Below are positions 36,113-61,289 of a stretch of 64,000 bases of DNA, in pieces (the first letter of the stretch is position 1; each line of letters starts with the position of its first letter). A program made the position numbers and the translations under genes. Below the pieces are notes generated by a model. That model saw only the letters and a program-made list of their open reading frames with translations, was not told where the DNA came from and ran no database searches. This stretch comes from an uncultured Alphaproteobacteria bacterium (GTDB lineage: Bacteria; Pseudomonadota; Alphaproteobacteria; Rs-D84). The stretch spans positions 1 to 64,000 of the forward strand of contig CALXML010000004.1 of NCBI GenBank assembly GCA_944389465.1, read 5' to 3'.

Positions 36113-36287
36113 GCACTGGACGACTACCAATGCGGGGCGTGATAACCTCTGAAGTTGTCGGAAACGACATAAAACATTTACTCCAACTAAGCGTTGCAGG
36201 TTGGAGGGTCGTGATATATATGAATAAACGACGCTATTACTTCAATAGTTATCAACCTCCAACCGCCATTAGTCAGGCGGCGTTTTT
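36113..36287 (+). promoter_or_regulatory. Structured leader RNA, copy 1 (candidate riboswitch/attenuator)
   Basis: Pairings seen: a 5' hairpin GCAcTGG/CCAaTGC (36113-36133); P1 TGATAAC/GTTATCA (36140-36146 with 36248-36254); P2 TGAAGT/ACTTCA (36150-36155 with 36239-36244); P3 TGTCG-GAAA-CGACA (36156-36169, a GNRA loop); conserved TAAAACA; P4 CTCCAAC/GTTGGAG (36181-36187 with 36200-36206); P5 GTCGT/ACGAC (36208-36212 with 36228-36232) closing the loop GATATATATGAATAA; then CCTCCAACC (36256-36264), which can pair with GGTTGGAGG (36199-36207); then terminator CCGCC/GGCGG with T5 (36263-36287). A second copy lies at 53398-53569. The downstream gene starts at 36322. The ligand or signal is unknown. 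Confidence 0.7.
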
Positions 36288-36321: not shown

Positions 36322-36912
36322 ATGAAGAAAAAATTATGTTTAATTAGCTTATTTTTGTGTGATGCGGCATTTGCGGTGGGGACACCTACACTCTATTACT
36401 GTAATTGTGGGCCTGGTTATGAAAGTACTAATAGCGTTTATAATCGTTTGGATGCGTGTAAAAGTTCAAGTGATACAGAATGTATAGTGTCATCTTCGTC
36501 AACTGGATTTGTGTACAGAATGTCATATCAGGAAGCAGAACCAGCCTGTGGTGTGTGTCAGTGTTATTCAACTGTAAATGACTGGGAGTATAGCAGCTAT
36601 TGTACGGTAAAAAGGACTAATATCAGAGTTTATGATAGCGGTGAGTTTTCAACAACTTGCAATTATGAATTTGAAACAGATGTTGGGTGTGATGACGGAT
36701 GTTATATGGAGTGGTATGAACCTCAGAATCTTGATATTGGGTGTACAAGCTGTCCCAGAGTTTCTGATGATTGGACAGATTGTTATGGAAGAAGCAAAAT
36801 AGGAAATAAACAAGGAATAGATGGATGCTGGCTTCCTTATTGTGGTAATATGGACGATGAAACTGGTACTTGGGTTATTACGGAAGACGAAAAATGCTTT
36901 TATCAACCGTAA
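36322..36912 (+). CDS. Exported cysteine-rich protein under leader RNA control
   Basis: This 196-residue protein has a signal peptide (about 1-18, ending AAFA) and about 19 cysteines in the mature chain, many in pairs such as YCNCG, CGVCQC and CTSC. The mature protein should be disulfide-bonded outside the inner membrane. It is acidic and has no membrane segment after the signal. I recognise no domain. AGGGG precedes the ATG at 36322; the open frame extends upstream through the RNA leader, but that part is not coding. It shares its leader type, but no obvious sequence similarity, with the gene at 52947-53366. Confidence 0.75.
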   Translation: MKKKLCLISLFLCDAAFAVGTPTLYYCNCGPGYESTNSVYNRLDACKSSSDTECIVSSSSTGFVYRMSYQEAEPACGVCQCYSTVNDWEYSSYCTVKRTNIRVYDSGEFSTTCNYEFETDVGCDDGCYMEWYEPQNLDIGCTSCPRVSDDWTDCYGRSKIGNKQGIDGCWLPYCGNMDDETGTWVITEDEKCFYQP

Positions 36913-52946: not shown

Positions 52947-53366
52947 TTAGTCAGATAAATTACTAAACATTGAAGCGCGTATAGATGCTTCATCTCTCAA
53001 ATTATACGCACATGTAGAAGCACAGTTTGTGGCACAGGAAGCAGCTGTGCTGTATGATCTAGAAAATACCCATTGTGAAACCGCCGGACTAATCATTCTG
53101 CACCAGCAATATTTATTGTTATCCAATGTATAAGATATTTCTACATAATAATTAGTTGTTGCACCCATTGAACCACCATTTTGCGAGCCACAAAATGCAA
53201 TCCCTTCAATAGACGTACCATCACATGTTGCAGAAAAGTCAGAATCCCGCCCAAAAAAACTAGAACACGTTGTTGATGGTGTTAAGGCTACATATTTTGT
53301 AACCGCCGTGGCGGGTGGGATTGTGGCCGCGCAAATCAGGCCGGTGATTAATAAATATTTTTTCAT
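52947..53366 (-). CDS. Exported cysteine-rich protein under leader RNA copy 2
   Basis: This 139-residue protein begins MKKYLLITGLICAATIPPAT (signal peptide, cleavage near ATA) and has nine cysteines in the mature chain, including KYCWCRM, SCATNCASTC. It has no membrane segment and no domain I recognise. The start is fixed by GGAG 7-10 nt upstream of the ATG at 53366; an upstream in-frame ATG at 53447 would lie inside the RNA leader. It is the first gene of a two-gene operon. Confidence 0.72.
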   Translation of the reverse strand: MKKYLLITGLICAATIPPATAVTKYVALTPSTTCSSFFGRDSDFSATCDGTSIEGIAFCGSQNGGSMGATTNYYVEISYTLDNNKYCWCRMISPAVSQWVFSRSYSTAASCATNCASTCAYNLRDEASIRASMFSNLSD

Positions 53367-53397: not shown

Positions 53398-53569
53398 TAA
53401 AGAAAACCACCGGAATTTTCAGGTGGTTGGAGTTTAAGAACAATCACTATAATTGCGTGGTTTATTCAGTATATTCACCACACTCCAACCATAATGGTTG
53501 GATTTGTTTTACGTCGGTGTCCGACGATAGTGAAGGGTTCTTAAGCCCAATATGGGAATACCCCATATC
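53398..53569 (-). promoter_or_regulatory. Structured leader RNA, copy 2 (candidate riboswitch/attenuator)
   Basis: Minus-strand pairings: 5' hairpin ATATGGG/CCCATAT (53550-53568); P1 TTAAGAAC/GTTCTTAA (53537-53544 with 53434-53441); P2 TCACTAT/ATAGTGA (53527-53533 with 53444-53450); P3 CGTCGG-ACA-CCGACG (53512-53526); conserved TAAAACA (53505-53511); P4 TCCAACC/GGTTGGA (53496-53502 with 53484-53490); P5 GTGGT/ACCAC (53477-53481 with 53457-53461) closing GAATATACTGAATAA; ACTCCAACC (53425-53433), able to pair with GGTTGGAGT (53482-53490); terminator AACCACC/GGTGGTT with TTTTCTTT (53398-53428). P1, P2, P3 and P5 differ from copy 1 by paired changes. Confidence 0.72.
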
Positions 53570-53575
53570 AATTTC

Positions 53576-53603
53576 ATAATATCACAGGTGACGGTTAAAT
53601 CAA
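53576..53603 (-). promoter_or_regulatory. Promoter of leader RNA copy 2
   Basis: On the minus strand TTGATT (53598-53603) and TATTAT (53576-53581) with a 16-bp spacer; transcription would start near 53569, at the 5' edge of the folded leader. Confidence 0.55.
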
Positions 53604-61165: not shown

Positions 61166-61289
61166 CCCGCAGCCGGCGATATTAACGCCGTGCGAGGGAA
61201 TCCGAGTATATAAGGTCAAGCGACGCGCAGACCGAATAACTATTGAGGATACCCGCAGCCGGCGGTATTAACGCCGTGCGAGGGAATCC
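61166..61289. repeat. 38-bp direct repeat, two copies
   Basis: CCCGCAGCCGGCG (A or G) TATTAACGCCG followed by TGCGAGGGAATCC occurs at 61166-61203 and 61252-61289, with one base different. Each copy has a GGCG/CGCC hairpin. The second copy runs into the duplicated tRNA end. Confidence 0.8.

Follow-up and report, generated by a model that had tools for sequence, protein, structure and literature searches.

The window, a 64,000-nt stretch of the genome of a bacterium of the genus Candidatus Enterousia (order Rs-D84), carries on its minus strand, at 53398-53603, an element that serves as leader to a gene for a secreted protein (53366-52947). A second copy with the same arrangement of parts lies on the plus strand, again in front of a gene for a secreted, cysteine-rich protein (Table 1). 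The predicted structure of the 139-residue product of the first gene is confident past residue 30, with a mean pLDDT of 82, and its fold found no match in the PDB or BFVD. Some 20 paralogues of this protein (alignment A7) end in ..LSD and share the motif CWCKM.SPAVS.WV; the one paralogue scanned against Pfam gave no match. The window also contains near-identical direct repeats unrelated to the leader, of 38 nt with an 86-nt spacing at 61166-61289 and of 126 nt with a 174-nt spacing at 1-300.

Table 1. Parts of the two leader copies in the window and the genes that follow them
Feature	Position	Strand	Sequence or role	Basis
-35-like hexamer	53598-53603	-	TTGATT	Sequence
-10-like hexamer	53576-53581	-	TATTAT	Family-wide -10 peak at the same offset
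P1	53549-53569	-	5'-terminal hairpin, GATATGGG-GTATT-CCCATATT	RNAfold
P2x	53537-53544	-	TTAAGAAC; 5' strand of long-range helix P2	Copy comparison, RNAfold
P3x	53527-53533	-	TCACTAT; copy-specific 5' strand of helix P3	Copy comparison
Accessory hairpin	53512-53526	-	CGTCGG-ACA-CCGACG; varies among copies	RNAfold
Segment A	53496-53503	-	ATCCAACC; 5' arm of the A:B hairpin	Copy comparison, RNAfold
Segment B	53482-53490	-	GGTTGGAGT; partner of A or C; putative antiterminator strand	Copy comparison, RNAfold
P5	53457-53481	-	Hairpin with conserved loop GAAUAUANNGAAUAA; in both folds	Alignment
P4	53440-53456	-	Hairpin, GCAAT/ATTGT	Copy comparison
P3y	53450-53444	-	ATAGTGA; within the P4 loop	Copy comparison
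P2y	53434-53441	-	GTTCTTAA; 3' strand of helix P2	Copy comparison
Segment C	53425-53433	-	ACTCCAACC; partner of B; last 4 nt double as start of terminator stem	Copy comparison
Intrinsic terminator	53405-53428	-	AACCACC-loop-GGTGGTT, then U run	Sequence, RNAfold
Downstream gene	52947-53366	-	139-aa secreted Cys-rich protein with a family of paralogues; regulated gene in the proposal	Sequence
Second copy (copy 1)	36114-36280	+	Same architecture	Sequence, covariance model R1
Copy 1 P1	36114-36132	+		
Copy 1 P2x	36140-36146	+		
Copy 1 P3x	36150-36155	+		
Copy 1 A	36180-36187	+		
Copy 1 B	36199-36207	+	GGTTGGAGG	
Copy 1 P5	36208-36232	+		
Copy 1 P4	36233-36249	+		
Copy 1 P2y	36248-36254	+		
Copy 1 C	36256-36264	+	CCTCCAACC	
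Copy 1 terminator	36263-36280	+		
Gene 3' of copy 1	36322-36912	+	196-aa secreted Cys-rich protein	Sequence

Across the family, the order of parts from 5' to 3' is promoter, P1, a G-rich strand with P2x, P3x, optional extra hairpins, A and B, followed by P5, P4 (with P3y as its loop), P2y, C, the terminator, a Shine-Dalgarno sequence and the start codon. The P1 hairpin begins approximately at the predicted transcription start; its stem is of 7-9 bp in most copies, and 157 different 5' arms occur. Segment B (GGTTGGAG-like) is complementary to A, upstream of it, and to C. The pairing of A with B excludes that of B with C, and P2 and P3 constitute a further competing set, sharing strands with P4 and with the hairpin Pa (GGG/CCC), inside whose loop P2x lies in the alternative fold. 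The most conserved part in sequence is P5, which is present in both folds and is positioned at the junction of fold B.

The initial annotation, in which 'P1' denotes our helices P2 and P3 and 'P4' our A:B hairpin, had claimed that the strand we call B is exactly complementary to a segment further downstream, our C. This holds over all nine positions in both copies, and the ninth pair covaries as described, being T-A in the 53-kb copy and G-C in copy 1. The chance expectation of GGTTGGAGG in the 64-kb window is 0.10 occurrences. We likewise find C overlapping the 5' arm of the terminator, with 4 nt shared in the 53-kb copy and 2 nt in copy 1, and the TTGATT/TATTAT promoter in the place assigned to it.

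The element belongs to a large family. At least 36 copies are present in the host genome (954 kb, 99% complete): about 25 were found by sequence search, covariance model R1 brought the count to 34, and two divergent copies were added by way of the Rfam family RF02221. Matches to R1 occur in 128 of 142 genomes sampled from Rs-D84, an order of gut bacteria with reduced genomes (PMC12306168). The family statistics given here are drawn from 251 distinct copies of the Enterousia set. A blastn comparison of the window element with phages gave no match. Five IMG/VR contigs (L283-L287) contain the P5 motif, four of them with an R1 match, and may be either phages or host islands.

In the 251 copies, the three strands A, B and C covary. 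B and C pair along their whole length in 228 of them and in 23/24, 19/20 and 30/30 distant loci, with many different sequences. Where B is of an uncommon type (81 copies), all seven Watson-Crick pairs (7/7) form between A and the B of the same copy in 49 cases, but between A and the common B in only 5; the corresponding figures for full Watson-Crick pairing of C are 45 and 3. P2 is perfect (6/6) in 93% of copies versus 8% for arms exchanged among copies, P3 reaches at least 7 bp in 78% versus 7.6%, and P4 is perfect (5/5) in 88% versus 40%, controls that overstate the number of independent changes because the Enterousia copies are mutually related, a point which the distant loci partly answer. 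The P2/P3 strands match within their own copy and not across copies. In a 24-copy alignment, compensatory cells numbered 52 for fold A versus 11 on shuffling and 30 versus 9 for fold B. The arms of Pa are conserved in sequence in Enterousia (pairing 4.17 with own arms versus 4.04 swapped), so covariation provides no test of this helix there and its support comes from the distant loci only. Overall, the mutually exclusive pairing of B with A or C put forward in the initial annotation is maintained by compensatory change in the 251 copies and in distant relatives.

These observations bear on the reading that the element is a repeat scattered through the genome, or a mobile element, with inverted repeats that would serve as DNA-level sites of a MITE-like or integron attC-like kind and an RNA structure that would be incidental. 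We regard this as extremely unlikely. It would explain how a small genome comes to contain at least 36 copies, and a 2025 study reports sRNA-Xcc1, a relative considered below, on integron cassettes upstream of symE (PMC12444791). However, mean column identity among the copies is just 54% (alignment A1) while pairing is kept by compensation, the copies are in leader position and orientation with a promoter and a terminator, and on inspection the core boxes are unlike the attC sequences RYYYAAC/GTTRRRY.

A -10-like hexamer is found at a fixed offset in 208 of 248 copies versus 44 of 246 in a control region. Competition with a terminator, also part of the original claim, extends beyond the window: C leads into an intrinsic terminator in 240 of the 251 Enterousia copies, with 3-4 nt in common in about 190, although 32 of the 240 terminators lack overlap with C and the competition would be weak in those copies. 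The start codon follows C at a median of 51 nt (quartiles 48-56 nt) and the terminator stem at a median of 32 nt. The latter gap leaves little room for a separate promoter, and the gene is therefore most likely expressed by read-through. The terminator thus lies between promoter and start codon, with a stem that competes with a conserved alternative helix, as expected of an attenuator.

The minimum-energy structure calculated with RNAfold for both window copies is fold A, comprising P1, P2 with P3, A:B, P5 and the terminator. Forcing B:C in the 53-kb copy yields Pa, P4 and P5 at a cost of 17 kcal/mol. Across the family, the terminator fold has the lower predicted energy in 225 of 240 copies, by a mean of about 9 kcal/mol. 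Since the antiterminator fold is predicted to be far less stable, it may rarely form unaided.

The genes behind the copies are mostly those of secreted proteins and of small DNA-binding proteins. By a simple rule, 130 of 244 downstream ORFs are signal-peptide-like. In a Pfam scan of 121 downstream ORFs, HTH families were commonest, with HTH_31 in 20 proteins; rarer matches were to glycosyltransferases and Cys-rich repeat proteins. Very small HTH/XRE-like proteins of the host genome are encoded behind leaders L059, L060, L063, L065, L066, L067 and L072, and such products could feed back on the leader promoters. Leaders L221, L237 and L213 are followed by housekeeping-like genes, which from their appearance we take to be tyrosyl-tRNA synthetase-like, phosphofructokinase-like and RecF-like.

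From this anatomy, we think it probable that the element works in cis as a two-state transcription attenuator, located in the 5' leaders of genes for surface or secreted proteins and small HTH proteins. In fold A, the long P2-P3 helix, the A:B hairpin (which would act as anti-antiterminator) and P5 would leave C free, so that the terminator is completed and transcription ends short of the gene. In fold B, B:C would enclose P5 and P4, with Pa upstream, removing 3-4 bases from the terminator stem and allowing read-through into the gene. As fold A is the predicted ground state, the gene would be off by default. Fold B is probably favoured by a factor that works through the conserved P5 loop or through the B:C/P5/P4 junction, or else by the pace of transcription.

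The nature of this trigger admits a second reading, in which a metabolite riboswitch has its aptamer in the P5 loop or the B:C/P5/P4 three-way junction, and the ligand stabilises fold B, turning the gene on. The conservation of P5, its presence in both folds and its place at the fold-B junction would suit such a role. Moreover, no obvious protein antiterminator was found in the organism's own genome: searches for ANTAR, CAT_RBD and CsrA gave nothing above cut-off, and a single NusG was present with no specialised form of the RfaH/LoaP type. Nevertheless, the targets are diverse, spanning surface proteins, small HTH proteins and glycosyltransferases with no metabolic pathway among them, and no ligand suggests itself. 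An Rfam scan of the window copies at gathering and relaxed thresholds returned no riboswitch, and the Rfam riboswitch and T-box models matched neither these copies nor their relatives. The same domain also precedes phage antirepressor genes (see below), an arrangement for which an RNA- or protein-based trigger would be just as suitable. On balance, we consider a metabolite riboswitch rather unlikely. A match to SgrS in one copy (33.9 bits, below cut-off) was judged to be due to chance.

P5 bears also on a third possibility, attenuation by a leader peptide, with a short ORF (Shine-Dalgarno sequence GGAGGG and a GTG start within P5) on which ribosome stalling would control the terminator. Many copies do contain GGAGGG-N2-3-GTG, but the putative GTG is GCG in about one-third of them (T 57%, C 36% at that position), the subsequent stop codons differ among copies and the spacing is too short. 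We consider this mechanism very unlikely.

The probable attenuator has relatives outside Rs-D84. Weaker R1 matches were found in other alphaproteobacterial families, with the same layout and different A, B and C sequences. A second covariance model, R2, built from non-Rs-D84 sequences only, recovers the Enterousia copies at E ~1e-21 and has matches in 35 of 385 sampled alphaproteobacteria. Nineteen of 20 further distant loci form B:C with 9/9 pairs. Several distant loci match RF02221, the sRNA-Xcc1 family, two of them above the 53-bit cut-off (L336, 66.2 bits; L341, 56.2 bits). The window copies score below this gathering threshold; among sub-threshold matches in Enterousia, two in genome G040 coincide with R1 matches and two in the host genome are the extra copies, of the same architecture. 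On alignment, the RF02221 consensus structure is fold B: its outer 9-bp helix corresponds to B:C, its internal-loop hairpin to P5, its small hairpin to P4, and its tail runs into C. By this comparison, the predicted fold-B domain is homologous to sRNA-Xcc1, and the element is a large repeated family whose two folds differ by more than one pair of helices around an sRNA-Xcc1 superfamily core.

The Rfam model covers an 87-nt fold-B half only, whereas canonical loci also have the upstream half with Pa, P2x and P3x. In a comparison set of 30 RF02221 loci across Pseudomonadota, the upstream strands pair with their own partners over at least 7 bp in 93%, versus 25% when swapped; in Enterousia the values are 96% and 9%. 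Most canonical loci have, in addition, a third copy of the P2/P3 strands, which flanks the Shine-Dalgarno sequence of the next gene and thus lies at its ribosome-binding site (RBS; at least 7 bp in 63% versus 15% swapped). In Enterousia this RBS copy was not detected (10% versus 8%), and a TTTT run follows C in 243 of 251 copies versus 4 of 30 canonical loci. The Enterousia copies thus differ from sRNA-Xcc1 in having a terminator that overlaps C, no RBS copy, surface-protein genes downstream and, mostly, sub-threshold Rfam scores. The next gene at the canonical loci (L356-L385, L386) is often of the phage antirepressor type. In Aggregatibacter phage S1249, the RF02221 RNA has an antiterminator-Q-like gene on one side and the anti-repressor gene ant on the other, and CTCAAAA-GGA-CACATAA stands immediately 5' of the ant start codon. 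In canonical phage- and integron-borne members, P2y and P3y may instead pair with the RBS of the next gene, and the Enterousia branch appears to have exchanged this target for a terminator, its form being more plausibly derived than ancestral.

The homology to RF02221 raises the question of whether the element is a stand-alone gene for a trans-acting sRNA of the sRNA-Xcc1 type, with the downstream gene incidental or served by its own promoter. In the parts of the literature available, sRNA-Xcc1 is an integron-borne, trans-acting free sRNA; a stable RNA of 88 nt was defined by RACE in Xanthomonas (PMC2996969), seven copies are present in Xylella, where homologues are abundant in cells and vesicles (PMC12189769), and homologues are abundant in EHEC RNA-seq (PMC5331693). 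No leader-attenuator role is proposed for sRNA-Xcc1 or C4 in the accessible portions of the literature found on both. Against a trans-acting role in Enterousia, the ORF follows at the near-constant distances given above, the P2/P3 strands are copy-specific, so that copies would not recognise one another, and a simple sRNA needs no conserved 5' half with mutually exclusive pairings. We therefore hold this reading to be improbable.

More tentatively, since this is possible rather than probable, sRNA-Xcc1 itself may be a bistable, C4-like cis-regulatory core that originated in phages and integrons before antirepressor-type genes, and not primarily a free trans-acting sRNA. It would then have been domesticated in reduced-genome gut alphaproteobacteria, losing the RBS target and gaining the terminator, so that tens of mutually insulated copies make up a surface-protein regulon with one shared trigger at the P5 loop.

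For fifteen years, RF02221 has been presented as an sRNA that acts in trans and is linked to virulence. With the attenuator reading, the family would acquire a second half that is conserved and a cis mechanism open to test, and the interpretation of sRNA-Xcc1 homologues in Xanthomonas, in Xylella (including the vesicle RNA) and in prophages would be affected. That a minimal, host-dependent genome of less than 1 Mb employs the same elaborate RNA device in at least 36 leaders, most of them ahead of genes for secreted or surface proteins and small regulators, suggests a coordinated surface programme in this uncultured gut lineage, which has no known regulation. The copy-specific P2/P3 strands may, in turn, constitute a natural set of orthogonal RNA switches.

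Besides sRNA-Xcc1, two known systems offer the closest comparisons. In the C4 RNA of phages P1, P7 and P22, two internal antisense strands face two upstream target strands, and two further target strands flank the Shine-Dalgarno sequence of the antirepressor gene. The canonical sRNA-Xcc1 loci appear to share this layout, a functional resemblance on which we claim no membership of C4 (RF01695; c4-a1b1, RF03163): RF01695 did not match the element, and c4-a1b1 gave one weak match of 26.5 bits (cut-off 46.7). The Enterousia branch differs from C4 in lacking the RBS target, though it retains the upstream copy of the target strands. With attenuation riboswitches and classical attenuators, the Enterousia leader shares a predicted anti-antiterminator (A:B), antiterminator (B:C) and terminator that are mutually exclusive within a 5' leader. 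It differs from them in having no known ligand, in its second set of long-range helices, P2/P3 against Pa/P4, and in its occurrence in tens of copies, in a reduced genome, before surface genes.
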